A stretch of 21,074 nt of DNA from Chromera velia (Eukaryota; Sar; Chromeraceae): assembly GCA_018398765.1 (NCBI GenBank), contig JAHBMJ010002231.1, positions 1 to 21,074 on the forward strand. The letters run 5' to 3'. Below are positions 819 to 21,074 of the stretch, in pieces. A program made the position numbers and the translations under genes. The first letter of the stretch is position 1. Each line of letters opens with the position of its first letter. A model generated the notes under the pieces. It did no database searches and was not told the origin of the DNA. It worked only from the letters and a program-made list of their open reading frames with translations.

Positions 819-2444
819 TTATGACAAAGTCTCAGCAATATCAAACTGCTTCTTCCCGGTTGCGTTCCCCGTCGCCGTGTCAAACCACAAAAAGAGTTCA
901 AGCAGCATAATGGGTGGAGGCCTTGCGGGATCCAAAGACTCTGCCAGTGACTCTTTAAAGAGAATTTGACGTCTTGGAGACTCAGAGCTGGAAGCCTCAG
1001 GGACGACACAAATTTTTCCTGCATCTCCATTTCGCCCGGCCGTCTCAAGCAGGTTCTCACAAAGAATCTGAGGGAAGACTTTTTGTGTGTTGATGTGTTC
1101 TCGTGTGACGTTGGCCGAGCATAATTGAAGTCTCTCTCGTTGGAAATGGCGCTCCAACGTGCGATGCTCCTTGAACGAGGGTGGGATCTCTGAGAGCAAG
1201 CAGCAATTACCACGATTTCGGAGTTTCAGAGCATTCTTCACTTCCTTTCGTGCCTTCTCTCTCATTTCCGACACTTTAGAGCTCACCGCCTCCCCACCAT
1301 CAGCCTCGTCCATTTCTAGAAAATCACCCAGCTTATTCAGAAAATTCACCACCCTCTCCGAGTCCTTTCCATGCCTCTCTGTCAGCAAGCCGACTGCAGC
1401 ACCCACTAACCAGTGAAGAACTGAACGATTCAGAGGATGGAGAAAATACCACTTTTCAATCGCCGACTTGATCTCAGACTCTGACTCAGAGTCAGAAGCA
1501 GGAAGGGTGGCAGCTGCTGCATCTAAAAATCCACCCATATCCCACCCTGTCCACCATTCGTGGAGACCATCTGTGGCCGTATGCAGATCGTCAGTTCCGA
1601 GTGCACGAGAACAGCTGTCTTCCAAAGACCCCGTCCTCTCATTCTCAGCCATGACCTCATTCACGAAGTCGTCGACTGCGTCCCACACACAGAATTCAAA
1701 AAACTCAAAAGCGTGCAGGGGTGACTGTCTAAATTTGTCTGCTCTTTTCTGATCCGACCCATCGCCATACCGACCGGGGACCGTTCTAATTGCACTACAC
1801 AGCTTCTGTATAGCACCATCAGGGACTCCAATTTTCCTTTCGATCCCAAGGCGCTGCAGGTGTACGGACAATTCACGATACACGAGCATTAAAAAGAGAT
1901 TATATCGATCTTTCCAATCCGACGCAAGACGCACTAATGCATCACTGCTTTCAGCCTCCACATTTTGTTCCTCTATCAAAGATCTTAACAAGGCGGCCAA
2001 ACGATCTTGCGCTGCCTCATATTCCCCTTTCTCCATTGCTTCGAGAGCGTCGAGCACTCTGATGAGCTGCCGATCCTCCTCAAATCTCTTTTCAGCTGTC
2101 TCTAATCCTTCTGCTTGTGCCCTTGCGACCGTCACGGCGGCCTCGAGGCACTGCTCTGATCTTCTGAGTGCCTCTGGAGTGTCCAAATCCCCCCACATAT
2201 CGCTCTGTGTTTCGAAGAATGCTGAAAGATCTTCGAGAGAGACACCAAGATTCTCTGACACTAACGCAGGGGAATGACCGGTTCCGGTCCGACTGAGGAG
2301 GAAACAGTCGAGGTTGGAGGAGGGCTCAGATTGTTCTTCATGAAGCAACAGCGGAGAGTGTGGGAGGGAGCAAGGAGGATGCCATCCCCAGACTCTCACA
2401 AGCTCGGACGCGCAGTCCCATTTTCCTCTCAATCCGGGATTTCC
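819..2444 (-). CDS. C-terminal helical segment of the NLR-type gene
   Basis: A long minus-strand open frame ending with a stop at 819-821. It encodes an acidic, largely alpha-helical region with heptad-like stretches, for example around EALRRSEQCLEAAVTVARA and EAAQDRLAALLRSLIEEQ. A Ser/Asp/Glu patch (SDSESESE) and an Arg/Lys-rich tail follow. I recognise no named domain; the helical pairs could be degenerate TPR- or HEAT-like repeats, which usually follow NB-ARC modules. The 5' boundary is uncertain. An acceptor-like ttgtag precedes 2444 on the minus strand and gives the correct phase if the upstream segment ends near 2503 at a gtcgga donor, but that intron would be only about 60 nt. The last 150 or so codons are less convincing as coding. 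Confidence 0.5.
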   Translation of the reverse strand, partial: GNPGLRGKWDCASELVRVWGWHPPCSLPHSPLLLHEEQSEPSSNLDCFLLSRTGTGHSPALVSENLGVSLEDLSAFFETQSDMWGDLDTPEALRRSEQCLEAAVTVARAQAEGLETAEKRFEEDRQLIRVLDALEAMEKGEYEAAQDRLAALLRSLIEEQNVEAESSDALVRLASDWKDRYNLFLMLVYRELSVHLQRLGIERKIGVPDGAIQKLCSAIRTVPGRYGDGSDQKRADKFRQSPLHAFEFFEFCVWDAVDDFVNEVMAENERTGSLEDSCSRALGTDDLHTATDGLHEWWTGWDMGGFLDAAAATLPASDSESESEIKSAIEKWYFLHPLNRSVLHWLVGAAVGLLTERHGKDSERVVNFLNKLGDFLEMDEADGGEAVSSKVSEMREKARKEVKNALKLRNRGNCCLLSEIPPSFKEHRTLERHFQRERLQLCSANVTREHINTQKVFPQILCENLLETAGRNGDAGKICVVPEASSSESPRRQILFKESLAESLDPARPPPIMLLELFLWFDTATGNATGKKQFDIAETLS

Positions 2445-2502
2445 CTACAAGGACAGAAAACAGACGACAACGAGCGAGCCCTCCCCCAGGCATCTCTCCG
2501 AC

Positions 2503-2790
2503 TTCCTTGACCTCACAGGCCGAGGAAGAGAAGACATGGCTCGTTGCCTTCCAGGATGCGTCTGCTATTTCATCCAGAATCGAGAGAACCCTCTGACCGT
2601 CCTTTGCAAGACTTTCACCGGGCTGGGGGGGGCTAACTTGGACACGCTCACGCAAACTGCGTGCAATGTCGCTGCCTGCAGACAAACCAAACTTTTCCAA
2701 GAGAGCCGTCGGGGAGAGACCACTCAGCCCCCCTACAGAAGAGTCTGAGCTGCTTGTGGACTCTCCTCCGCTGGCAGTGGCTGGGGGGGG
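2503..2790 (-). CDS. Linker/helical segment of the NLR-type gene, frame-shifted
   Basis: This open frame continues the minus-strand gene after an apparent frame change in a run of nine C (minus strand) near 2783-2791. It encodes a Ser-rich linker, then the segment LLEKFGLSAGSDIARSLRER and a predicted helix (VLSILDEIADASWKATS). No domain is recognised. The frame of the previous segment stops at 2733-2735, while this frame runs through it, so a one-base error in the homopolymer or a real mutation is needed to join them. GT-starting donor candidates lie near 2503-2520. Confidence 0.4.
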
Positions 2791-3932
2791 GAGGGGAGGC
2801 TCAGGGCAGGGGCGGAGGAGGGGGGCTTGAAGGTTTTGACCATTGTGTAAGGCCAGCGAAAGAGGTACGCCAGGGCAGCTTCTGCCTGGCCGAGGGAAAT
2901 GTAGCAGTCCACTACTATTGTGGTAAAGGAACCTCGGAGGCCGGCGGGAAGAAGGGGTAAGAAGGGTGTGAGCATCTTTATGAAGCAGTGCGGCGGAAGC
3001 CTCTCGGCCTTCTTCCTGAGGAGCCTTTTGCTAAGGGTTTGGCTGAAGAGCTTCAACAGCCACCCTCTATCCCCCCACACAAAGCATCTGACTATGTGGG
3101 CCACCAAACTGACGGCAGAGGACAGTAGCGCCTGCTCATCATAAACCACGGAGAGCAGAGACTTCTTTGCGGCAACGGTAACCTCCCCCCTGCCGGGCCA
3201 CCTGGTTTCAATTTCATTCAACAGCCAGGGGCGGAGCACTCGCTGGCCCCAGTGGCACTGGAAGAACAACCGCTCAAACCACAGACACAGAAGCATGAGC
3301 ATGCGAACCTCCTGTTTCTCAATGTGTGCCCATGACTGGCCAGCTGAATTCACCCAACGCTGCAGGACCTGCAGTTGATGGTTGTTTCTCCCGGAGGGTG
3401 TGGGGAGACGACAGAAGAGGTCTTCAATTTCCCATCTACTTGTGTGCCTACCGACAAACAGAGCATATGCAATCAGATTGAAGACGGAGTGTTGACGACT
3501 TCCAACGGGATCATCCGCTTTGACCTCCCTTCCCAACTCAGTGCGGACAGCTAGCTGAGTCAGCTCATGGATGCCATACCAATCCTCAACCTCCATCGGC
3601 TCTATGTCTGTATTGCGTAGGGTACCGAGGAGGCGTCCGAATTCGTCCCGCTCGGTTTTCCGTTGCTCAGTGCGAAGGGTGCACAGCGATTGTTTTCTGT
3701 GGGAAATGAGACAGTTTGCGAAGGCAAAGCTCTTTGCCTGTGGCGTCTTCCCCCCTTCATCCTTGTCCAATGACTTGCAAGTCTCGAACACCTGCAGGAA
3801 GGCACATGAGCACAGAGGAGGCCCAATTATGCAGAGAGCCAAGCAGGCAGGCAAAGAAGTCAAATGACGAGCAAGTCTTTCCACTACGGAAACCTTTTTT
3901 CGACAACGTTCGGCGTGAAAGCCTAGCTGTCT
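2790..3932 (-). CDS. Winged-helix-like and helical segment of the NLR-type gene
   Basis: A minus-strand exon. An acceptor (ttacag) before 3932 is in phase with a GTCAGT donor after 4180, giving an intron of about 247 nt. The key motif is YGIHELTQLAVRTEL, which matches the 'yriHrLvQ..vR' strand-helix at the end of the winged helix in NB-ARC/TPR proteins. Downstream are about 200 residues rich in Trp and Leu with alternating helices, including WEIEDLFCRLP and LFRWPYTMVKTF. They could be degenerate TPR or ARM-like repeats. The segment between the acceptor and RDEFGRLLGTLRN is less convincing and may contain a further intron, because another acceptor-like tttcccacag lies in it. It ends at the C9 tract where the frame changes. 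Confidence 0.5.
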
Positions 3933-4179
3933 CTGTAATCGTAGTGCAAGAGCCTCGTAATGATGTCTTCGAGAGAAACGAATCGCAGTTTCACATCAAA
4001 TTTACATCAAATCAACGAGCACCTAACGATCCGAAGGACCACACAATGAGGGAGACATTGGGCCAACCGCGTTGCAGACGAAACGTCTTTCTGAATGATG
4101 TTGTCTCAAAAAGAGGGAAGAACAAAAGAACGGCTGACGGAAATTGCGCTCAAGAAGTTAAAAAAAAATGGTGACTGAC

Positions 4180-4705
4180 CGTCTTACAAATCTCGAAAGA
4201 AATTTGTCGATGATCAGCAAAGGACAGGCACTCCATCAGAGTGGCAGCCCTCGAGAGACCCTGTTGACAGAGGAACTCCCTCTGTTGCCTCCACAAGCTG
4301 ATCACACTCAGCTGGTAGTCGGTCCATTTTTGAATCTCCCCCCGCTTTTCTAGAAATTCCCGCACCTCTCCTCTCTCTGCTGACACACGCTCAGCTAGAT
4401 CAGAGAATGTCAGCACCCCCCGTTTCTCTGCAATCAGAGAGGAGGCCATCACAAGACCCAACGGAAGAGATCCGAGCGCCTTTGTTTGCACGTTTCTCGG
4501 AACCGGCAGTGTCATCTGGCTGCTTTCCGAGTGTCTGAAGGAGTAACTGCGCATCGGGGAGTTGCAAAATGTCGAGATTCATATGTTTGGGGGGGGGGCA
4601 CATCGGGTTCGAGTCATCCCGGGAGGTGATCACCACAATGCCTTCATGGTTTTTTGGTATGAAGGTCCAGAGAAGTTCTGGATCTTCTAGGTTATCTGCC
4701 ACCAA
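4180..4705 (-). CDS. NB-ARC domain, second half (Walker B to GLPL), frame-broken
   Basis: This stretch carries the second half of an NB-ARC ATPase. LVADNLEDPELL is the Walker B/DNxxD-type strand. It is followed by the sensor strand IVVITSRDD, a helix (LPDAQLLLQTLGKQ) and the GLPL-like motif LGSLPLGLVMASSL. The order and spacing are those of NB-ARC/TPR STAND proteins. Two single-base frame changes are needed. One is near 4703-4710, where an extra T in a TTTT run separates it from the upstream P-loop exon. The other is near 4479-4490, where EKRA leads into ALGSLPLG. No intron explains either, because family spacing is contiguous across both. The 3' boundary at 4180 is a GTCAGT donor in phase 0, the same donor word used by the plus-strand gene. 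Confidence 0.6.
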
Positions 4706-5654
4706 AATTCAGTCCCTGTTTCTCCTCCAACCATTCACGCAGGTGGGAGGAGCTATCCATCAGTACCCCTTTGGCTTTGAAATCGTCACGCACTTCCTTA
4801 ATCTCAGATTCCAAATTTTCACGGGATGATGCCTCCAACCAGATCTTCGTCAGAGGGACCTCACACCGGTGGAGCAGCTCACAGGCTAGCTGAGTCTTGC
4901 CCACCCCCCCTATTCCTGAAATCAAAATAAACGGCACCCCCCCGCTCCCCTCTTCTCTTGTCACCACACTTCCCCCACCCCCAACCCACCCCAGCAACTG
5001 CTCTACTGCGCCACCCCGGCCAAAACAAAAGTCGTCCCCCCCCTGTCCTGCACGTGGTTTTAAGCTAGGTGGATATCTCCTGCGGATTTGGGGAGGCTGC
5101 AACGTGGTGTCGCCCCTCCAAAGCACAGGCTCGGCCTTCCCGGCAAATAATTTGATCGCCCCATCATGCGAGACTTGGAGAACGAACGCGCTAGCCCTCC
5201 TTGCACACTCTTCTGCAGCAGCGGTACCCAGACCTCCACCGACAGATGATGCTGCCCCCTCATACCCCAGACGAAATCCAGAGGCCCGAAACTCACCGCT
5301 TGGGCCGTCGATGATGAGCGCCCCGTCGTCATTCAATCGCTCTTGCAACTCCCGCCAGCCCCGATCGGTCTTGACGTCTGTGGGGAATCTCTTGATGTTC
5401 TCTTCCCGTACACCTCCATACATGGTCATTCTGTCTGGTGCGGTTTCACTTTGCGGATCGCTTTCCTCGATCCTCGAGAGGAAATCGATGGCGTTGCTGA
5501 CGACCAGACGTGTGCCTTGTCGACTCCCTCCACTGCCGATCTCTGCGTACACCTCAGCGATGCGTAATACTCTGAGAGCAGTCACGTGCCAGTCTGATGG
5601 GATAAAGCTGAACAGCGGCCTCAGCCGCTCAGGAACGTCCGTCGCTGTGGTCAT
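4692..5654 (-). CDS. NLR/STAND N-terminus: DAC-like domain plus NB-ARC P-loop
   Basis: The ATG at 5654 opens a 320-codon frame. Residues about 100-175 resemble the DisA_N/diadenylate cyclase fold. They have DGALIIDG (DGA at 110-112), then GTAAAEECARRAS at 143-155 where true enzymes carry G-T-R-H-R-A-A, then FVLQVSHDGAIKLFAG. The RHR is absent, so catalysis is unlikely and a nucleotide-sensing role is an inference. FCFGRGGAVEQLLGWV (209-224) is the usual leader of NB-ARC. Residues 247-254 form Walker A (GIGGVGKT), and IWLEASSRENLE is the following RNBS-A-like strand. The domain should act as an ATP-switched oligomerising sensor in the cytoplasm. The frame stops at 4692, but the NB-ARC continues immediately in another frame, so this is the 5' part of one damaged or mis-assembled gene. 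The NB-ARC call is firm; the DAC-like call is tentative. Confidence 0.65.
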   Translation of the reverse strand: MTTATDVPERLRPLFSFIPSDWHVTALRVLRIAEVYAEIGSGGSRQGTRLVVSNAIDFLSRIEESDPQSETAPDRMTMYGGVREENIKRFPTDVKTDRGWRELQERLNDDGALIIDGPSGEFRASGFRLGYEGAASSVGGGLGTAAAEECARRASAFVLQVSHDGAIKLFAGKAEPVLWRGDTTLQPPQIRRRYPPSLKPRAGQGGDDFCFGRGGAVEQLLGWVGGGGSVVTREEGSGGVPFILISGIGGVGKTQLACELLHRCEVPLTKIWLEASSRENLESEIKEVRDDFKAKGVLMDSSSHLREWLEEKQGLNFGGR

Positions 5655-6039
5655 TCTCTCTGGTGTGCAGGCTGCACGAGAGAATCGACTGCTGAAGGTC
5701 AGTCAATCAGTCAATGTGACTCAGTCAGTCAGCAAGTCTGTCTGCTTGACGTTGAATCAGTTGAATCTGAACTGACTTTGACGAAGTTGATCTTCTGATC
5801 ACACACGACAATCTTGTTGTGTGTTGTGTGCGCGGTTGCGCAACTTGCGCCAACAAGAGCTCAGCTTTGAATGCATTCAATGCATTGACGGCGTCGGTGG
5901 CCGGCCTGTCAAGACTTAGTTAAGTTAATTTTTTCAAAGCCATGGCTTTGAAAATTCCCAAAACTCAAGCTTTTTCAAAACTCAAGTTAATTTTCTTATA
6001 TAATTTTCAGGCCAACTGCTTGAAAACATTCTCAAAACT
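5655..6039. other. Upstream region of the minus-strand NLR gene
   Basis: No coding sequence is recognised. Next to the NLR start are many TCAG/GTCA words (5700-5740), then AT-rich sequence with the phrase CAAAACTCAAG at about 5958 and again near 6033, within longer partly duplicated stretches. This should contain the NLR 5' UTR and promoter. I see no convincing TATA box. Confidence 0.35.
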
Positions 6040-8418: not shown

Positions 8419-9145
8419 ATGTCGTCCTCCTCCTCAGGCTCGATTTGGGGGGGGGGATTCAAATTCCTGTTCCTCATCTGCATGGCGTGCCTGGCTCTTC
8501 TTCCAAAGACCGCGGAGGCCTGGTATGCTGTGACAAATGACGGGACGATCATCTTTTTGGGACCCGTTGAAATCAGTCAGTCGAGTGTGTGTGTGTGTGT
8601 GTGTGTGTGAAAGAGAGAGAGAGTTCCTAGATCGGTTGCCTTCTCTGGTTCGTTTTCGGGCACCTTTCTCTTCTCTTTTGTTTTGTTTTCTTCTTCTCTT
8701 GGCTGACCTCTCTTTGACTTGCCTGATCTTCTCTTGGTGGTGTTTTGTTTCCCCTCTCTTTTCTTGCTGTGATGTGGTGCTCTCGTTTCTTTCGTTTTGA
8801 AGGAGGGAGGGGATCTGGGTTTCTTTTCGTTTTCATGACGTGTGGTCCGTTCTCTCTGACGCAATCTCACAAGCCTCTTCTTACCCTTTCCTCAATCATC
8901 CATCCCTTTCTCTGCCATACTTTGAGATCTTTCTGTTTTTCTTTCTTTCCGTGCGCGTCTGTTGTCTTGACGGTTCGATTCGATGCAGATCCGTCATACG
9001 GTGACAGTCGAATCTCTCTTCGCAATAGCGGTACGAGACAGGTCCGTCTTTCCAGGTGTCTGTCCTGTCCTCTGTCTCTCTGTCTCTCTCTCTCTCTCTC
9101 TCTTTGTGTTTGTGTGTGTGTGAGAAAGAGAGAGAGAGTGAGTGA

Positions 9146-9180
<35 letters not shown>

Positions 9181-9979
9181 TGAGTGAGTGTGTGTGTGTG
9201 CCTCTCTCTGTCTTTCTCTCTTGGTGTCTGTCTGGTCCTCGCCTCTTCGCTTTTCTCCCGTTCTGCTTTCCTTTCCTTCCCGTTCTGGCCCGCTGACCTC
9301 CGATTCCCTTCCCCGCTCTAAGTTTTGTCTCATCTATCTTTTCACCAACCCTCTCCCCTCCCCTTTTGTCGGGAGACTCTCTTGTTTTCTTCTCCTTCTC
9401 CTGCCCCCTCTCATTATGGGCCGTTTATCGTCTAGACTTCCTTGATACCCTTTCTTTCTGCGTGCAGTGGGACATCTACAACGACGCCACAAACGACGAC
9501 ACACTGAGAATACAGTCAGTCAGCCTGTCTGTTAGGGGAGCAAGAGAGAAGAGGAGAAAGCAGGTGGATGCTGATGAGAAGTCAACTGTTGTCAGAGCTC
9601 CTCAAAAAAGGAAAACAAGAAAGTCATTGCAATGCAGGGATTTAATTCAGATTGCACACATGCCGTCTTCTTTTCATGATTACACAACGGACAGGGAAAA
9701 AGAGGACCAAGAGGGGTTCTGCTTGTTACTGTCTTTCCTTTACCGCTGAAAAGCTTTTACTGCATGATGTTATTTGCATCACCGAAGCGTCGTTTCTTCT
9801 TTCCCCTTGTCCACCTACTGTACTGCAGAAAGTACACTGACGGGACGGACTACGTCTCTCTGACCACGTCCTCTCTCTCGGTCAGCAGGCACCCTCGTTG
9901 TCTCTTGTTTTTTCTTGTTTCGTTCATTCAGCTTTGATTTTGCGCAGGCATGCGAATAGTTCTCCCCCCCCCCCCCCCN

Positions 9980-10013
<34 letters not shown>

Positions 10014-11481
10014 CGTGCGTGCTCGCCGGTGGTAACTTCTGGGCGCCAAGAGAGAGAAGACTGTGTCACCTCCCTTCCCTCTGGGTCTCACTGTTCCCGT
10101 TCCCCTTCACTGCAGGTCTACCACAACGTACAACTTGGGTCGTCTCTGTCGGTGCACCACAGTCAGTCAAGTCACAACTAGGGCTGTAAACAGTGTCAAA
10201 AAAGACGCTGATATGGGGATCTCGTTCTCTCTTTCGTCTCTATCGTGAATTGATTCTGACCTGTTCCGTTCTTCGACTTTCATCGGTTCCTTTCTGATTT
10301 GAGTGATGACCGAATGGAATGAATGTCCGAGCAAGGGATTTGAGACAGGGGGCTCTCGAAAAAAAGTGGTGGTGATTCGACGATGCATCTGCGTTCTTCT
10401 TTTCTTTTTTGTGCACAGATCCTTTGTTCGGCCTCCTTTTTCATCATCAGTTTGTGTATGTGTGTGTATGTATGTATATATATATGTGTGTGTGTGCAGT
10501 AAGTATGTTCAACGGTATCGCCACATTCCTCGAACCCGTCAGTCGATTGCGTGGGAGGGGATTTGGATATTCATGGACAGGGAGGGGGGCACGGAAGGTT
10601 TTTCTTTTTCTCTGTTGCTTGTCACTGTTCCTTCTTTTTCTTCCCCTCCCTGCACTCCGGAACTTTCATTGGTGTTGCTGTGTTGGGGCTGACCTTCCTT
10701 CCTTCCTGTCATTCATTCATTCCTTCATTCATCCATCCGTACTTGCAGGTGTACATGAGAAGCACCCTCTCAGTGACTGATCGGACACAACTGGGATCGT
10801 CTCTGTCGGTGACCTCATGGACAAAGCTTGGAGGTCGGTCGGTCTCCTTCTTTCGTTTCTCAATTTGTTCTTTCATTCACTATTCATTCATTTATTCATT
10901 CATGCGTCCATTCATGTCTCATGTTATTCATCAACACCTGCAACCATCTACTCATTCGTTCACTTTTCCTTCTTGTCTCCATGGTCTTTGACCAGATTTC
11001 TGTCAGTTCTCTCCCTTTCTGTCTCTTTCTGGCCACGAATGGAATTTCTCAGTTAGAGAGACTATTTGCTGTCAGGGAAGTTAAGCACACATGCAAGTGT
11101 TTGTGGTTTTGGAGGAAATGGTCTTCCTGTGGGTGCGCCCATCCTTTGTCAATGTCTCTTCTGTAGTACAAAACCAGAACAGAACGTTGACATTCATTCC
11201 TGTGCGAACTTCCAGAGCAATCAGATGTCCAACAATCCTTCTTCATCGCATCGCACTGCCTTACTTGCAGGCGCACTCTCTGTACACGGGGTCACAGACC
11301 TCTACGCATCTGTGTCTGTCAGAGAAAGGTCGGCTGAAGGCACGCTTGATTTCCCACCCTGTTCAGCTCCACTTCTTTTTTTTTCTTTGCCCGTCGGCTC
11401 CTACTGATCTCAATCGACAATCGAAGGACTGAATCTGGGTGTCTGTTTGTGGTTGTGTGTATGTTTATCTTCTCTCTCTGA

Positions 11482-11530
<49 letters not shown>

Positions 11531-12327
11531 CGCCCTCATGTTGCTCTATATGAACGCTTGCAATCCGCCTATCTGTGTGCAGAGCTGTTTTGGGATCGGC
11601 ACTTTCGGTTCGGCAATTCGTCCGACTCGGTCAGTTGTGCCTGTCGCAAGAAGTCTTCAGCATAATTTGTTTGACGATTGACGTCTGTTAAGACACAATC
11701 AGCATTTCCTCGTATTGCCTCACTTAAATTCAAAGGAGCGGCTCAAGCATGCGTGCCCGTGTGTGCATATATGCGTGTGTGAGTGTGTGTGTGCGTGTGC
11801 GCTCTTCCCTTCCGTGCCCTTCAAAGAAATGCGGGATCAGTGTACACTTATCCTTCCGCACTCCCACGTGCGTTTCGGCACCCCAGCTGACCATTTCTCG
11901 TTTCGGTGCCCCAGCTGATCAATGCTTGCGCTGCCTCTGTCGTTCGCTTTTTGCCTTTTCTTTATCCTTATTCAGGGAACACGCTGTCGGTGTACGGAGA
12001 TTCGGACCTTGGGGGCGTCCTCTCTGTGAGGGGCATCGGCCTTCTGGGAAGCTCTATGTCCATTCAGTCAGTCGTTCTTTCTTTCTTTCTTTCTTTGAAT
12101 GCTATTTCTGCAATGTGGGTCCAGCCGTTGTTCCTCTGTTGTGCTAGCTTTCCGTTTTATTCCGGAAGCTGCTGGCTGTGAGTGTCTGGAAGACCAAAGG
12201 GTCACCCAAGGAGATACTGGGTGTCGTGCTTCTTTGTTAGTGCATTGGCTGTTACATTGCATTCTGAAACTGTTTGCGCTTCTTTTTTCATGTTGTGCGT
12301 GCGTGCGTGCGTGTATGTGTGTGTATG

Positions 12328-12363
<36 letters not shown>

Positions 12364-12509
12364 GTCATATGACCCATGCATCTGCCTGCAGGTCCTTCTC
12401 TCGGCTGGGGTCGACCCTCTCGGTGTTTGGAAGTGAGCCGGCAGGCCTTTCTGTTTTCGAGACCTTTCGTTGTCATCCTTTCTTTTCTGCTTCTTGTCAT
12501 TCTCTCTTA

Positions 12510-12566
<57 letters not shown>

Positions 12567-15500
12567 CTGTCTGCCGTCTGTCTGTCTTCTGAAAGATAGA
12601 AAGAGGAAGAGAAAAGAGAAACAAAAGGCAACATAGTCTGTCGGTCTGTCTTTTTTGAATCCTTTATTTCTTTGTTTGTTTGACTCATTGTGCCTCCTTT
12701 CTCTTTCTCTGTGCTTCGATGGCTTGTTTTGCTCCCTCGGTGGATCTGTTGTGTCTTTTCACCTTTTTGTAGAGACATACCTGACGGTGCGACTGCGTGT
12801 ACTAGAGAGACTCCATATGCAATTCTGTCTTGATGCATGAAAGAAAATACCTCTGTGTGTCCGGGATGCAGGCACCAATCTTGGGTCGTCCCTGTCTGTG
12901 CTGGACCAGGTGCTGATGGGGTCCTCCTTGTCGGGTCCGTCCGTCAGTAATGCGACCAGTCGGGTTGTGCCTCTTCTTTTGCTTTGCTTTGTTTTGTTTT
13001 CTTTTGTGTGCGGTTGAGTGCCTACAGGGGAGAAAAAGAAAAGGGGCCAGGCGCTGAGAAGTCTTTATGGTCTTCGTCTGTGGATTTTCATCTCTTCAAG
13101 CGCGCATTTGTTTTGGGTGCATCTTTCGCCTTTAGTCTTCAATGATTACACTGTCATGTAGACCTGTGATTGGAAATTAGGTTTTTCGATTTTCTCTGCT
13201 TCCTTGTCTCCGTGTCTATCTGGCACAGGCAATGTGAGTGCATGAATGATGAATCATTTGATGAATATGCATTTGCAGTTCGAAGTTTTGCGCGTCTCGG
13301 CAGTTCCTTATCTGTCTTCGGGATTGCTGCCTTCTATTCTACCTTATCAGGTCAGTTCGTCAGTCAGTCAGTCAACCAGGCAGTGAAGCTACCGGTCAAG
13401 ACTTTTCTTCCTTGTTTGTTTCCCACTTCTGCTCGGCCTGCTATTGCTTCCATACCGTATCATCGCTTCCTTTACCTTCAAATGCGGACGTGATACAATA
13501 GCTTTCCTGCTGACTCAACCCATCCCTCCTCCAAAAGAATTTCAAAGTCAAAGAGAAGAAAAAAGCAGAGAAGGAGAAGAAAAAGAAGAGGAAAAAGAAA
13601 AGAATGACACAGAATCAAAAAAGAGTAATCGCCATCAGGCATCAACGCGAGCTACCAAGAAGAAAAAAAAAATTACAGCCACCTGGAGAACTCTGAAAAA
13701 ATTCCGCACGGAATTTTCCTCTGCCGCCCCCCCCCCGTCATCTGCTTTACAAAACATACCAATGAATCCTTCCACCAATCATGCGCCTGCAGTACGCGAT
13801 TTCTCGACTCTAGGCTCGTCTCTGTCTTTGAGAAGCATGGGACGTTTGGGGTCCTCGCTGTCTCTGACGAGCTTTGCGATGCTCGGGTCGTCCCTGTCCG
13901 TGACTGGTTTCACGGAGCTTGGCTCCTCGCTGTCTCTGACAAGCATAGGACGTTTGGGGTCCTCGCTGTCTCTGACCAGCTTTGCGATGCTCGGGTCGTC
14001 GCTGTCCGTGACTGGTTTCACTGAGCTGGGCTCCTCGCTGTCTTTGACCAGCATGGGACGTTTGGGGTCCTCGCTGTCTCTGACAAGCTTTGCGATACTC
14101 GGGTCGTCCCTGTCCGTGACCGGTTTCACTGAGCTGGGCTCCTCGCTGTCTTTGACAAGCATGGGACGTTTGGGGTCGTCGCTGTCTGTGACGAGCTTCG
14201 CGATGCTCGGGTCGTCGCTGTCCGTGACTGGTTTCACTGAGCTTGGCTCCTCGCTGTCTTTGACAAGCATGGGACGTTTGGGGTCCTCGCTGTCTCTGAC
14301 GAGCTTCGCGATGCTCGGTTCGTCGCTGTCCGTGACTGGATTCAGTGAGCTTGGCTCCTCGCTGTCTTTGACAAGCATGGGACGTTTGGGGTCGTCTCTG
14401 TCTGTGACCAGCTTTGCGATGCTCGGGTCGTCGCTTTCCGTCACTGGCTTTACTGAGCTTGGCTCGTCATTGTCTTTGACAAGCATGGGACGTTTGGGGT
14501 CCTCTCTGTCTGTGACCAGCTTTGCGATGCTCGGGTCGTCGCTGTCCGTGACTGGTTTTACTGAGCTTGGTTCCTCGCTGTCTTTGACAAGCATGGGACG
14601 TTTGGGGTCCTCGCTGTCTCTGACCAGCTTTGCGATGCTCGGGTCGTCGCTGTCCGTGACTGGTTTCACTGAGCTGGGCTCCTCGCTGTCCGTGACAAGC
14701 ATGGGACGTTTGGGGTCCTCTCTGTCTCTGACGAGCTTTGCGATGCTCGGGTCGTCGCTGTCCGTGACTGGTTTCACGGAGCTGGGCTCGTCTTTGTCTT
14801 TGACGAGCATGGGACGTTTGGGGTCCTCGCTGTCTCTGACGAGCTTTGCGATGCTCGGGTCGTCGCTGTCGGTGACTGGTTTCACTGAGCTTGGCTCCTC
14901 GCTGTCTTTGACCAGCATGGGACGTTTGGGGTCCTCGCTGTCTCTGACGAGCTTTGCGATGCTCGGGTCGTCGCTGTCCGTGACTGGTTTCAGTGAGCTC
15001 GGGTCGTCGCTGTCTTTGACAAGCATGGGACGTTTGGGGTCTTCGCTGTCTGTGACCAGCTTTGCGATGCTGGGGTCTTCGCTGTCCGTGACTGGTTTCA
15101 GTGAGCTTGGCTCCTCTTTGTCTTTGACAAGCATGGGACGTTTGGGGTCGTCGCTGTCTCTGACCAGCTTTGCGATGCTCGGTTCGTCGCTGTCAGTGAC
15201 TGGTTTCACTGAGCTTGGCTCCTCGCTGTCTTTGACAAGCATGGGACGTTTGGGGTCCTCTCTGTCTCTGACCAGCTTTGCGATGCTCGGGTCGTCGCTG
15301 TCGGTGACTGGCTTCACTGAGCTTGGGTCGTCTCTGTCTTTGACGAGCATGGGACGTTTAGGGTCGTCTCTGTCTCTGACCAGCTTTGCGATGCTCGGGT
15401 CGTCGCTGTCCGTGACTGGTTTCACTGAGCTGGGGTCCTCGCTGTCTTTGACAAGCATGGGACGTTTGGGGTCCTCGCTGTCTCTGACCAGCTTTGCGAT

Positions 15501-18500
15501 GCTCGGGTCGTCGCTGTCGGTGACTGGTTTCACTGAGCTGGGCTCCTCGCTGTCTTTGACAAGCATGGGACGTTTGGGGTCCTCGCTGTCTCTGACCAGC
15601 TTTGCGATGCTCGGGTCGTCGCTGTCTGTGACTGGCTTTACTGAGCTTGGGTCCTCGCTGTCTTTGACAAGCATGGGACGTTTGGGGTCCTCGCTGTCTG
15701 TGACTGGCTTCGCGGTGCTGGGCTCCTCTCTGTCTTTGACAAGCATGGGACGTTTGGGGTCCTCTCTGTCTCTGACCAGCTTTGCGATGCTCGGGTCGTC
15801 GCTGTCCGTGACTGGTTTCGCTGAGCTTGGGTCGTCTCTGTCTTTGACGAGCATGGGACGTTTGGGATCCTCGCTGTCTCTGACCAGCTTTGCGATGCTC
15901 GGGTCGTCGCTGTCCGTGACTGGTTTCACTGAGCTGGGGTCGTCGCTGTCTTTGACCAGCATGGGACGTTTGGGGTCCTCGCTGTCTCTGACCAGCTTTG
16001 CGATGCTCGGGTCGTCGCTGTCCGTGACTGGTTTCACTGAGCTGGGGTCCTCGCTATCTTTGACAAGCATGGGACGCTTGGGGTCGTCGCTTTCTCTGAC
16101 CAGCTTTGCGATGCTCGGGTCGTCGCTGTCGGTGACTGGTTTCACTGAGCTTGGCTCCTCGCTGTCTTTGACAAGCATGGGACGTTTGGGGTCCTCTCTG
16201 TCTCTGACCAGCTTTGCGATGCTCGGGTCGTCGCTGTCCGTGACTGGTTTTAGTGAGCTTGGGTCCTCGCTGTCTTTGACAAGCATGGGACGTTTGGGCT
16301 CCTCGCTCTCTCTGACCAGCTTTGCGATGCTCGGGTCGTCGCTGTCCGTGACTGGCTTCACTGAGCTTGGCTCCTCGCTGTCTTTGACGAGCATGGGACG
16401 TTTGGGGTCCTCGCTGTCTCTGACCAGCTTTGCGATGCTCGGGTCGTCGCTGTCCGTGACTGGTTTCACTGAGCTGGGGTCCTCGCTGTCTTTGACAAGC
16501 ATGGGACGTTTGGGGTCCTCGCTGTCTCTGACGAGCTTTGCGATGCTCGGGTCTTCGCTTTCTGTGACTGGATTCACTGAGCTGGGCTCCTCGCTGTCTT
16601 TGACAAGCATGGGACGTTTGGGGTCCTCGCTGTCTGTGACCAGCTTTGCGATGCTCGGGTCGTCGCTGTCCGTGACTGGATTCAGTGAGCTTGGTTCCTC
16701 GCTGTCTCTGACAAGCATGGGACGTTTGGGGTCCTCGCTGTCTCTGACCAGCTTTGCGATGCTCGGGTCGTCGCTGTCAGTGACTGGTTTCACTGAGCTG
16801 GGGTCGTCGCTGTCTTTGACAAGCATGGGACGTTTGGGGTCCTCTCTGTCTTTGACCAGCTTTGCGATGCTCGGGTCGTCGCTGTCCGTGACTGGTTTCG
16901 CTGAGCTTGGCTCCTCGCTGTCTTTGACAAGCATGGGACGTTTGGGGTCCTCGCTGTCTGTGACCAGCTTTGCGATGCTCGGGTCGTCGCTGTCTGTGAC
17001 TGGTTTCACTGAGCTGGGCTCCTCGCTGTCTTTGACAAGCATGGGACGTTTGGGGTCGTCGCTTTCTCTGACCAGCTTTGCGATGCTTGGGTCGTCGCTG
17101 TCGGTGACTGGTTTCACTGAGCTTGGCTCCTCTCTGTCTTTGACGAGCATGGGACGTTTGGGGTCGTCGCTGTCTCTGACCAGCTTTGCGATGCTCGGGT
17201 CGTCGCTGTCTGTGACTGGCTTCACTGAGCTTGGCTCCTCGCTGTCTTTGACAAGCATGGGACGTTTGGGGTCGTCGCTGTCTCTGACGAGCTTTGCGAT
17301 GCTGGGGTCGTCGCTGTCCGTGACTGGTTTCACTGAGCTGGGGTCCTCGCTGTCTTTGACGAGCATGGGACGTTTGGGGTCCTCTCTGTCTCTGACGAGC
17401 TTTGCGATGCTCGGGTCTTCTCTGTCTGTGACTGGTTTCACTGAGCTTGGCTCGTCTTTGTCTTTGACAAGCATGGGACGTTTAGGGTCCTCGCTGTCCC
17501 TGACGAGCTTTGTGATGCTCGGGTCGTCGCTGTCCGTGACTGGTTTTAGTGAGCTTGGCTCCTCGCTGTCTTTGACAAGCATGGGACGTTTGGGGTCCTC
17601 TCTGTCTCTGACCAGCTTTGCGATGCTCGGGTCGTCGCTGTCCGTGACTGGTTTCACTGAGCTGGGGTCCTCGCTGTCTTTGACAAGCATGGGACGTTTG
17701 GGGTCGTCGCTGTCTCTGACCAGCTTTGCGATGCTCGGGTCGTCGCTGTCTGTGACTGGTTTTGCTGAGCTGGGGTCCTCGCTCTCTTTGACAAGCATGG
17801 GACGTTTGGGGTCCTCGCTGTCTCTGACCAGCTTTGCGATGCTCGGGTCGTCGCTGTCCGTGACTGGTTTCACTGAGCTTGGTTCCTCGCTATCTTTGAC
17901 AAGCATGGGACGTTTGGGGTCGTCGCTGTCTCTGACCAGCTTTGCGATGCTTGGGTCGTCGCTGTCGTTGACAAGCATGGGACGTTTGGGGTCCTCGCTG
18001 TCTGTGACCAGCTTTGCGATGCTCGGGTCGTCGGTGTCCGTGACTGGTTTCACTGAGCTTGGCTCCTCGCTGTCTTTGACAAGCATGGGACGTTTGGGGT
18101 CGTCGCTGTCTGTGACCAGCTTTGCGATGCTCGGGTCGTCGCTGTCCGTGACTGGTTTCACTGAGCTTGGGTCCTCGCTGTCTTTGACAAGCATGGGACG
18201 CTTGGGGTCCTCTCTTTCTCTGACCAGCTTTGCGATGCTCGGGTCGTCGCTGTCCGTGACTGGTTTCACTGAGCTGGGGTCGTCGCTGTCTTTGACAAGC
18301 ATGGGACGTTTGGGGTCCTCGCTGTCTCTGACCAGCTTTGCGATGCTCGGGTCGTCGCTGTCCGTGACTGGTTTCACTGAGCTCGGCTCCTCGCTGTCTT
18401 TGACGAGCATGGGACGTTTGGGGTCTTCGCTGTCTTTGACAAGCTTCGCGATGCTCGGGTCGTCGCTGTCCGTGACTGGTTTCACTGAGCTGGGGTCCTC

Positions 18501-21074
18501 GCTGTCTTTGACAAGCATGGGACGTTTGGGGTCCTCGCTGTCTCTGACCAGCTTTGCGATGCTCGGGTCGTCGCTGTCCGTGACTGGTTTCACGGACCTT
18601 GGCTCCTCTCTGTCTTTGACAAGCATGGGACGTTTGGGGTCGTCGCTGTCTCTGACGAGCTTTGCGATGCTTGGATCGTCGCTGTCTTTGACAAGCATGG
18701 GACGTTTGGGGTCCTCGCTGTCTCTGACCAGCTTTGCGATGCTCGGGTCGTCGCTGTCAGTGACTGGTTTCACTGAGCTGGGCTCCTCGCTGTCTTTGAC
18801 AAGCATTGGACGTTTGGGGTCCTCGCTGTCACTGACCAGCTTTGCGATGCTTGGGTCGTCACTGTCCGTGACTGGATTCACTGAGCTGGGGTCCTCGCTG
18901 TCTTTGACAAGCATGGGACGTTTGGGGTCGTCGCTGTCTCTGACCAGCTTTGCGATGCTCGGGTCGTCGCTGTCCGTGACTGGTTTCACTGAGCTGGGGT
19001 CCTCGCTGTCTTTGACAAGCATGGGACGTTTGGGGTCGTCGCTGTCCGTGACTGGTTTCACTGAGCTTGGGTCCTCGCTGTCTTTAACAAGCATGGGACG
19101 TTTGGGGTCCTCACTGTCTCTGACCAGCTTTGCGATGCTCGGGTCGTCGCTGTCCGTGACTGGTTTCACTGAGCTGGGGTCGTCGCTGTCTTTGACAAGC
19201 ATGGGACGTTTGGGGTCCTCGCTGTCTCTGACCAGCTTTGCGATGCTTGGGTCGTCGCTGTCTTTGACAAGCATGGGACGTTTGGGGTCCTCGCTGTCTC
19301 TGACCAGCTTTGCGATGCTCGGGTCGTCGCTGTCCGTGACTGCTTTCACTGAGCTGGGGTCGTCGCTGTCTCTGACAAGCATGGGACGTTTGGGGTCCTC
19401 TCTGTCTCTGACCAACTTTGCGATGCTCGGGTCGTCGCTGTCTGTGACTGGTTTCACTGAGCTCGGCTCCTCGCTGTCTTTGACGAGCATGGGACGTTTG
19501 GGGTCCTCGCTGTCTCTGACCAGCTTTGCGATGCTCGGGTCGTCGCTGTCCGTGACTGGTTTCACTGAGCTGGGCTCCTCGCTGTCTTTGACAAGCATGG
19601 GACGTTTGGGGTCGTCGCTGTCTCTGACGAGCTTTGCGATGCTTGGGTCGTCGCTGTCTTTGACAAGCATGGGACGTTTGGGGTCCTCGCTGTCTGTGAC
19701 CAGCTTTGCGATGCTCGGGTCGTCGCTGTCGGTGACTGGTTTCACTGAGCTGGGGTCCTCGCTGTCTTTGACAAGGATGGGACGTTTGGGGTCGTCGCTG
19801 TCTCTGACCAGCTTTGCGATGCTTGGGTCCTCGCTGTCCGTGACTGGTTTCACTGAGCTGGGGTCCTCGCTGTCTTTGACCAGCATGGGACGTTTGGGGT
19901 CCTCTCTGTCTCTGACCAGCTTTGCGATGCTCGGGTCGTCGCTGTCCGTGACTGGTTTCACTGAGCTGGGGTCCTCGCTGTCTTTGACAAGCATGGGACG
20001 TTTGGGGTCCTCTCTGTCTCTGACCAGCTTTGCGATGCTTGGATCGTCGCTGTCTGTGACTGGTTTCACTGAGCTTGGGTCCTCGCTGTCTTTGACGAGC
20101 ATGGGACGTTTCGGGTCGTCGCTGTCTCTGACGAGCTTTGCGATGCTCGGGTCGTCGCTGTCCGTGACTGGTTTCACTGAGCTGGGGTCCTCGCTGTCTT
20201 TGACAAGCCTGGGACGTTTGGGGTCGTCGCTGTCTCTGACCAGCTTTGCGATGCTCGGGTCGTCGCTGTCCGTGACTGGTTTCACTGAGCTTGGGTCCTC
20301 GCTGTCTTTGACGAGCATGGGACGTTTGGGGTCGTCGCTGTCTCTGACAAGCTTCGCGATGCTCGGGTCGTCGCTGTCTGTGACTGGTTTCACTGAGCTG
20401 GGGTCCTCGCTGTCTTTGACAAGCATGGGACGTTTGGGGTCGTCGCTGTCTCTGACGAGCTTTGCGATGCTCGGGTCGTCGCTGTCTTTGACAAGGATGG
20501 GACGTTTGGGGTCCTCGCTGTCTGTGACCAGCTTTGCGATGCTCGGGTCGTCGCTGTCGGTGACTGGTTTCACTGAGCTNCTGTCTCTGACCAGCTTTGC
20601 GATGCTCGGGTCGTCGCTGTCCGTGACTGGTTTCACTGAGCTGGGGTCCTCGCTGTCTTTGACAAGCATGGGACGTTTGGGGTCCTCTCTGTCTCTGACC
20701 AGCTTTGCGATGCTCGGGTCGTCGCTGTCGGTGACTGGTTTCACTGAGCTGGGGTCCTCGCTGTCTTTGACAAGCATGGGACGTTTGGGGTCGTCGCTGT
20801 CTCTGACCAGCTTTGCGATGCTCGGGTCGTCGCTGTCCGTGACTGGTTTCACTGAGCTTGGCTCCTCGCTGTCTTTGACAAGCATGGGACGTTTGGGGTC
20901 GTCGCTGTCTCTGACCAGCTTTGCGATGCTCGGGTCGTCACTGTCGGTGACTGGCTTCACGGAGCTGGGGTCCTCGCTGTCTTTGACAAGCATGGGACGT
21001 TTGGGGTCCTCGCTGTCTCTGACCAGCTTTGCGATGCTCGGGTCGTCGCTGTCCGTGACTGGTTTCACTGAGCT
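8419..21074 (+). CDS. Giant secreted 12-residue-repeat (LGSSLS) protein, 14 exons, 3' partial
   Basis: Exons: 8419-8575, 8989-9041, 9468-9514, 9829-9880, 10116-10161, 10500-10537, 10749-10833, 11271-11328, 11583-11629, 11976-12066, 12392-12432, 12872-12934, 13279-13350, 13793 to beyond 21074. At least 2710 codons lie in the window. Exon 1 encodes a signal peptide (hydrophobic core FLFLICMACLALL, cleavage after AEA) and WYAVTNDGTIIFLGP. Exons 2-4 encode a leader with WDIYNDATNDDTLRI and KYTDGTDYVSLTT. This resembles the head of viral/phage beta-helical fibre proteins (my recollection, not searched). From exon 5 on the protein is tandem modules V-x-x-F-x-x-L-G-S-S-L-S, for example VRSFARLGSSLS. 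Each module is two hexads, which suggests a beta-solenoid; this is inferred. All intron phases match, and every junction from exon 4 on keeps exact 12-residue spacing. Introns are 211-442 nt; 12 of 13 acceptors are TGCAG. The function is unknown; an extracellular fibre, wall or adhesin role is likely. The start codon is the least certain point. Confidence 0.75.
8585..8623 (+). repeat. (GT)n then (GA)n microsatellite in intron 1
   Basis: About 12 GT dinucleotides followed by GA dinucleotides, nine nucleotides after the first donor. Confidence 0.95.
9071..9208 (+). repeat. Compound CT/GT/GA microsatellite in intron 2
   Basis: Alternating blocks of (CT)n, (TG)n and (GA)n, with AGTGAGTG interruptions occurring twice. 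The block pair GA-GTGAGTGAGTG-TG is duplicated. Confidence 0.95.
9963..10020 (+). repeat. Poly-C, unresolved N, then (TG)n/(TGCG)n in intron 4
   Basis: A run of about 15 C, a single N at 9979, about 14 TG dinucleotides and GTGC units. The N marks an unresolved point in low-complexity sequence. It is intronic, so the protein model is unaffected. Confidence 0.95.
10454..10497 (+). repeat. TG/TATG/TA-rich tract ending at the exon 6 acceptor
   Basis: TG, TATG and TA repeats lead directly into the gtgtgtgcag acceptor of the 38-nt exon 6. The UG-rich tract takes the place of a classical polypyrimidine tract. Confidence 0.85.
11483..11533 (+). repeat. (TG)n/(CG)n microsatellite in intron 8
   Basis: About 20 TG dinucleotides followed by CG dinucleotides, about 50 nt upstream of the exon 9 acceptor. 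Confidence 0.95.
12295..12363 (+). repeat. (TGCG)n/(TG)n microsatellite in intron 10
   Basis: GTGC units, TATG-interrupted TG units and a pure TG run, ending about 30 nt before the exon 11 acceptor. Confidence 0.95.
12511..12564 (+). repeat. (CT)n then (GT)n microsatellite in intron 11
   Basis: A pure CT block passes directly into a GT block, in the same sense-strand orientation as the other intronic tracts. Confidence 0.95.
13534..13611 (+). repeat. Purine-rich tract in intron 13
   Basis: An almost unbroken A/G stretch (aaagagaagaaaaaagcag and onward) in the last intron before the giant exon. It is the opposite composition to all other introns of the gene, which are T/C/G-rich on this strand. 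Confidence 0.85.
13793..21074 (+). repeat. Coding tandem array, 36-nt units in 108-nt triads (exon 14)
   Basis: The exon begins with a transition module (VRDFSTLGSSLS) and LRSMGRLGSSLS, then settles into a three-module cycle: C = LTSFAMLGSSLS, A = VTGFTELGSSLS, B = LTSMGRLGSSLS. About 202 modules fit in 7282 nt, and the register is exact from 13793 to the N at 20580. Differences between copies are mainly at third codon positions of the plus frame (TCG/TCC/TCT, ACA/ACC/ACG, GGG/GGC, CTG/TTG). A few triads have lost module A (C directly to B, for example near 17945, 18665, 19245, 19640 and 20465) or module C (near 15690 and 19040). The array runs off the right edge. Confidence 0.95.
20580..20580 (+). 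other. Single N: collapsed gap inside the array
   Basis: The N replaces the third base of a Leu codon in module A. The next bases resume at position 11 of a module, so G8-S9-S10 and probably one B module (45 nt), plus possibly any multiple of 36 nt, are missing. The frame survives, but the true length of the array is unknown. Confidence 0.8.

Follow-up and report, generated by a model that had tools for sequence, protein, structure and literature searches.

The contig JAHBMJ010002231.1 of the alga Chromera velia (assembly GCA_018398765.1) raises the question of what is encoded by a giant repeat gene that runs off its end. We refer to this whole stretch of 21,074 nucleotides as the window; it is contig C2219 of the assembly that we searched (177.8 Mb, 4,040 contigs, with 58 matches to light-harvesting proteins, which mark a photosynthetic eukaryote). 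A preliminary description, made from the letters alone, had placed on its plus strand a 14-exon gene for a secreted protein of 12-residue modules. Our analysis suggests that the window probably carries the 5' part of a nuclear, intron-rich algal gene for a secreted, homotrimeric beta-fibre, whose C-terminal chaperone domain of the Peptidase_S74 family (S74) would guide folding and then cut itself. The S74 chaperone is best known from virus tail fibres, and MYRF-type transcription factors represent its well-studied cellular role in eukaryotes.

Exon structure and coding strand of the window gene

The gene was rebuilt from the sequence letters as 14 exons on the plus strand. The model is stop-free over 2,710 codons and open at the contig end, all 13 introns start with GT and end with CAG, and the phases are consistent, in agreement with the preliminary description (more than 2700 residues, GT-AG introns, matching phases). 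Exon 1 (8419..8575) encodes a signal peptide, MSSSSSGSIWGGGFKFLFLICMACLALLPKTAEA, recognized by eye (19-residue hydropathy mean of 1.95), and the start of a leader, which continues through exon 2 (8989..9041, NPSYGDSRISLRNSGTRQ) and exon 3 (9468..9514, WDIYNDATNDDTLRIQ) and ends in exon 4 (9829..9880), where the first module begins (TTSSLS). Divergent modules occupy exons 5 (10116..10161), 6 (10500..10537), 7 (10749..10833), 8 (11271..11328), 9 (11583..11629), 10 (11976..12066), 11 (12392..12432), 12 (12872..12934), and 13 (13279..13350), and the homogeneous array fills exon 14 (13793..21074).

The junctions among the divergent modules were examined with a splice-aware aligner in which codons are matched in turn to a cyclic profile of 12 positions and GT...(C/T)AG introns are permitted. 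The profile was built from 280 modules of four arrays, with zero modules from exons 4–13. The aligned region, 9821–13809, includes ten junctions of the preliminary description, six of which were recovered exactly (10833/11271, 11328/11583, 11629/11976, 12066/12392, 12432/12872, and 12934/13279) with a score of 79.7. In comparison, 200 dinucleotide shuffles gave a mean of 9.6 (standard deviation 1.27, maximum 16.3), the reverse complement gave 9.3, and the top score with column-permuted profiles (n = 40) was 19.6. Among 108 overlapping 4-kb pieces of the genome, searched on both strands, 17 scored above 16.3, all of them overlapping known modules, and the remaining 91 scored at most 13.8. The six junctions were stable across five intron costs from 3 to 10, and a seventh, 13350/13793, was recovered when the region was extended to 13920 (intron cost 4). 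Exons 8–13 are therefore given by both the rebuilt model and the blind alignment, as is the 3' junction of exon 7.

The 12-residue register claimed for every junction from exon 4 onward is confirmed by the blind alignment at these seven junctions. The three that touch exons 4–6 (9880/10116, 10161/10500, and 10537/10749) were not recovered by the blind aligner on 9821–13809, so that exons 5 and 6 and the 5' junction of exon 7 were missed; in this stretch the aligner prefers a different path at intron costs 3 and 4.5. The register is the one basis for these three junctions, and exon 4 itself was placed by frame and register. Exon 6 fits the repeat poorly and is the weakest exon; the module FNGIATFLEPVY of this stretch is a poor fit. 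Junction 3 (9514/9829) is backed by the frame and the splice sites.

Junctions 1 and 2 are supported by a paralogue on contig C2257. This second gene has a signal-peptide-like start, MAGPRVFVFWLLLLLSTLVHVAKS, and a leader, WVLVSKDGDITLLGNIEIDPNYSTSPKVALRNSGVRKWTIV, with the array directly after it and no divergent modules. Its start differs from the window signal peptide, and the leader behind it is homologous, with 46.7% identity over 45 residues (E = 4e-15 in a two-sequence comparison); the counterpart of exon 2 reads DPNYSTSPKVALRNSGVRK. The position and phase of intron 1 are common to both genes. The junction 9041/9468 is supported because C2257 reads RKWTI straight through, without intron 2 of the window. 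C2257 has an extra intron between the signal peptide and the leader, where the window gene has none. The signal peptide and the leader of the preliminary description are both found in our reading.

The leader is followed by 15 divergent modules, and TTSSLSVYHNVQ directly upstream would make a 16th. Residue identity among them is 0.37 at lag 12 and 0.06 at lag 6. The array, counted from 13810, comprises 202 windows of 12 residues, the last of which is partial, in line with the roughly 202 homogeneous modules counted before. It is organized in a super-unit of 36 residues, or three 12-residue modules, LGSSLSLTSMGR-LGSSLSLTSFAM-LGSSLSVTGFTE. In total, 188 of the 202 windows are in register; the others fall outside because the register slips by 3 residues at a single N at 20580, which looks like a collapsed assembly gap and is probably an assembly join. 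The diversity at codon positions 1/2/3 was 0.022/0.0025/0.208, 0.027/0.005/0.145, and 0.019/0.021/0.158 for the three module types (65, 63, and 59 modules; classification by protein lowers positions 1 and 2 somewhat). In the plus frame, variability is therefore approximately 8- to 83-fold higher at third than at second positions, and the long antisense open reading frame (ORF; 2,431 codons, 13779–21074) is not the better reading. These sequence features lend good support to one spliced gene on the plus strand that encodes a secreted repeat protein with a fibre-like character.

Among 33 hand-assigned 5' splice sites (13 in the window, nine each in contigs C3248 and C971 discussed below, and two in C2257), C occupies intron position +3 in 28 and G occupies +5 in all 33, and the sites mostly read GTCAGT or GTCGGT. 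Despite the +3 C sites, the assembly's best candidate for U1 RNA (C723:30205-30359) carries an ordinary 5' end, ACTTACCTG. Another single N, at 9979 inside intron 4, also looks like a collapsed assembly gap.

Sister contigs with a stalk and an S74 domain

A DNA search of the assembly found 23 places. The 3' end of the array is seen on two contigs, C3248 and C971 (minus strand). On both, the reading frame leaves the array through ...LGSSLSVASFGRFGSGLTVNGNLYVTGNISYGG and then crosses nine introns with matching phases (10 exons, joined by hand). The array and a tail-fibre-like stalk, VNGNLYVTGNISYGG, lie directly upstream of a Peptidase_S74 domain, which is split by introns in both contigs. The order is CASDRRLK(D/H)AIRNLKEW, a variable linker, RLEPV.F.W.EG, NFGF.AQ.VRE.LPS.V.E, a predicted coiled coil, and a charged tail. 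Against PF13884, with its curated Pfam cut-off of 22 bits, the full C3248 tail scored 34.2 bits (E = 3.1e-8) over profile positions 16–57 only; when the linker was left out, the score rose to 48.7 bits (E = 9.6e-13), both members matched, and the match began at the dyad serine. A further S74 gene, the third, sits at the edge of contig C2922 (35.0 bits from two joined pieces), with the contig end just upstream of the S74 part. In all three genes the Ser-Lys dyad has a spacing of five residues, S-D-R-R-L-K in C3248 and C971, where the motif spans an intron, and S-D-S-R-L-K in C2922.

Phage tail-fibre families in PHROG cover the stalk and the S74 domain together (best E = 3.3e-13, linker left out). 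A PDB profile search without the linker gave four matches at E 0.1, namely the tail fibres 8jov (3.3e-4) and 6f45 (4.1e-4), a designed protein (0.092), and MYRF 7dc3 (0.095); the MYRF match is not significant alone because the designed protein scores equally. With tblastn, 142 phage records matched at E 1e-3, 115 of them from Klebsiella phages, and none covers 80% of the query; the 20 matches listed have 34.7% identity over 69%. In the C3248 tail, S74 is the sole Pfam family at E 0.1, with no NDT80-type domain, and no transmembrane segment was found after S74 in the C3248 and C971 tails (19-residue hydropathy maxima of 0.88 and 0.76, compared with 1.95 for the signal peptide). A six-frame search of the assembly for the S74 family at E 0.01 found no uninterrupted domain, while the positive control matched in E. 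coli. The domain missed in six frames was found after exon joining, so a short-exon repeat gene spread across contigs can hide its defining domain.

Which of these ends belongs to the window gene was addressed by the mean best matches of 216-base array pieces. The window matches itself at 95.3% (21 pieces), C3248 matches the window at 95.0% (eight pieces) and itself at 94.6% (eight pieces), and C2257 matches the window at 92.0% (three pieces). Because the C3248 array is as close to the window array as the window is to itself, C3248 is probably the continuation of the window array in the same gene, and C2257 and C971 may together form the second gene. The spliced, secreted, fibre-like protein of the preliminary description stands, and its extent is to be revised: the C-terminus is incomplete, the 14 exons are probably the 5' part of the gene, and the sister arrays run into S74 through nine further exons.

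The same module array also occurs on C1091 (L011, 2065–3880), C3775 (L014/L015, 8782–10000 and 1–339), and C500 (L016, 5054–5600), behind a different N-terminal segment (...WTSL..GFLG.G.GTSSGSSV...). Beyond the array, the C1091 reading frame encodes an acidic region and a hydrophobic segment, NWLFLSSLCLVAVVFGHGLA. Modules of this kind seem to move between genes. On contig C3806, a two-module fragment, LSVTGFTELGSSLSVFDRCGTS, occurs as two copies of opposite orientation approximately 28 kb apart (L018, ~5260, minus; L019, ~3110, plus), a pair perhaps carried by a mobile element.

Proposed fibre and alternative explanations

As described in excerpts of PMC3828593 and PMC8326128, the S74/ICA domain trimerizes, aids the folding of upstream beta-structure, and cuts itself off before a conserved serine with a lysine five residues on, leaving a kinetically stable trimer in phages. 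The endoNF dyad is given as S911/K916 in PMC3828593, and excerpts of PMC8326128 ascribe the MYRF trimer to its C-terminal coiled coil. In the proposed reading, the window gene would share the stalk and S74 end of the sister contigs, and its product would enter the secretory pathway. The coiled coil and the S74 domain would bring three chains together and seed the folding of the beta-repeats from the C-terminal end. Activated by the lysine five positions downstream, the S74 serine would then cleave the chain immediately before itself. What remains would be a stable trimeric fibre of roughly 50–130 nm, located extracellularly or in an organelle of the secretory pathway. The signal peptide and the repeat suggest a filament with a structural or adhesive role. 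With less confidence, we lean towards a broader proposal in which the alga has its own phage-type self-processing trimeric fibre, a small gene family whose giant members with a signal peptide would be folded and cut by S74 in the secretory pathway, and whose modules would also have reached other secreted proteins. If true, this would be a cellular use of the S74 system in a eukaryote outside transcription factors. A host gene would have kept the phage layout of repeat fibre, stalk, and chaperone together with a signal peptide and introns, so that eukaryotic cells would build virus-style trimeric fibres themselves, and the protein would be a candidate for surface or ejected filaments in the alga.

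Several observations weigh against the fibre proposed for the window gene. The window contig stops inside the array, and its link to S74 is one of array similarity, not of overlap: no overlap was found among 432-base contig ends, whose best matches fall elsewhere than at the opposite contig's end, and shared words reach 100 bases at most for the lengths tested. A pattern scan of the stretches fetched from C1091, C3775, and C500, one C1091 stretch being half N, detected neither the window-type leader nor an S74 motif, so an array of this type need not end in S74. The PDB profile search with the unmodified C3248 tail found no S74 structure. AlphaFold2 predicts the repeat as a beta-solenoid with a predicted local distance difference test (pLDDT) value of 78 (best of five models, 50–78), but the model is a monomer built from 11 near-identical rows, and a structural search with it gave zero matches at E 0.001. 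The divergent modules resemble phage proteins weakly (E = 2e-4 and about 1).

A rival explanation is a secreted repeat protein without S74, whose array would end in a charged or membrane-anchoring tail and form a single-chain solenoid at the cell surface. Three genes of the assembly carry the same array in such a context, among them C1091 with its acidic region and hydrophobic segment, and the monomer is modelled as a beta-solenoid unaided. However, these three arrays follow a different N-terminus, the window-type leader was not found beside them in the stretches scanned, and they are more diverged from the window (best matches of two 432-base window pieces of 75.7–89.1%, compared with 93.3–94.4% for C3248), and we consider this explanation unlikely. 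Slightly less likely still is a viral fibre gene, of a polinton-like virus, giant virus, or phage, that lies within the algal genome and serves or recently served virions. Excerpts of PMC12220804 describe PF13884 fibres as a ubiquitous feature of the polinton-like viruses found in most eukaryotic groups, as modular proteins of up to 3.9 thousand amino acids, and the S74 and stalk parts do resemble tail fibres. A resident host gene family is nevertheless favoured because of the 13 introns in the window and nine in each of the two 3' ends, the signal-peptide-like start, the several diverged paralogues on separate contigs, and the empty result, at E 0.01, of the assembly search for an uninterrupted S74 domain. 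A search for capsids of nucleocytoplasmic large DNA viruses found no match, which weighs little as its control gave no match either. Given the wide occurrence of S74 fibres among polinton-like viruses, the domain itself may plausibly come from a virus, perhaps long ago.

The least probable explanation by far is that the array is a satellite, or that the minus strand is coding, and that the exon chain is an artefact of reading. The antisense ORF is long, and in comparison with the C1091 array its ratio of nonsynonymous to synonymous differences (pN/pS) is as low (0.29) as that of the plus frame (0.33), so this comparison alone does not discriminate between the strands. In the comparisons with C3775 and C500, however, the plus-frame ratio is lower (0.20 and 0.14, compared with 0.41 and 0.41). 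The exon chain also beats the shuffles, permuted profiles, and genome pieces, and in two contigs the plus strand reads from the array into a Pfam domain without a break.

Comparison with known fibre systems

The phage proteins that match the divergent modules best include phiYS40 YS40_052, annotated as an acyltransferase, and YadA-domain structural proteins of cyanophages, at the weak E values given above. These proteins share chains of short xLSVxG-type repeats with the window, whereas YS40_052 has a 6-residue period and the window modules have a period of 12 only. A hexapeptide left-handed beta-helix would have a 6-residue period, which the divergent modules do not show.

The polinton-like virus fibres of protists are likewise modular proteins of great length that have one S74 domain, at the C-terminus, and, in excerpts of PMC12220804, laminin, collagen, or adenovirus-fibre modules. 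The algal genes form a multi-intron family with LGSSLS modules and a signal peptide; a polinton-like virus element would have an uninterrupted gene, and the window gene has 13 introns. A Pfam scan of six window ORFs, which constituted the screen for viral neighbours, found no family above the cut-off. The viral contig L063 (2420–4366) encodes a fibre with collagen-like SSGTSG repeats that closes with a short S74-like domain; its layout is the same, and its repeat type is different. On the minus strand of the window, long ORFs at 819–5702 contain a P-loop-like stretch, ISGIGGVGKTQLACE (by eye, ~4870–4925), and have a STAND/NLR-type look, with no Pfam family above the cut-off among the ORFs scanned.

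MYRF and MrfA, as described in excerpts of PMC3828593 and PMC8326128, share a cellular S74 domain with a Ser-Lys dyad, a beta-helical stalk before it, and a coiled coil after it. In the algal genes, neither an NDT80-type DNA-binding domain nor a transmembrane segment past the chaperone was found, and a signal peptide and a fibre are present instead; the 313-residue N-terminal window model gave no Pfam family at E 0.1. Phage tail fibres and tailspikes of the endoNF type have the same order of beta-rich repeat fibre, stalk, and S74 domain with the SDxRxK dyad and GF.AQ motif. The algal gene differs in being nuclear and intron-split, with a signal-peptide-like start, a strict 12-residue period in approximately 200 copies, a long variable linker inside S74, and a long charged tail past the coiled coil. 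The combination of an S74 chaperone with a beta-fibre is thus of a known kind, with parts known from phage fibres, MYRF, and polinton-like viruses, whereas a host version that is secreted, split by many introns, and built on a strict 12-residue array looks new as far as our searches reach.

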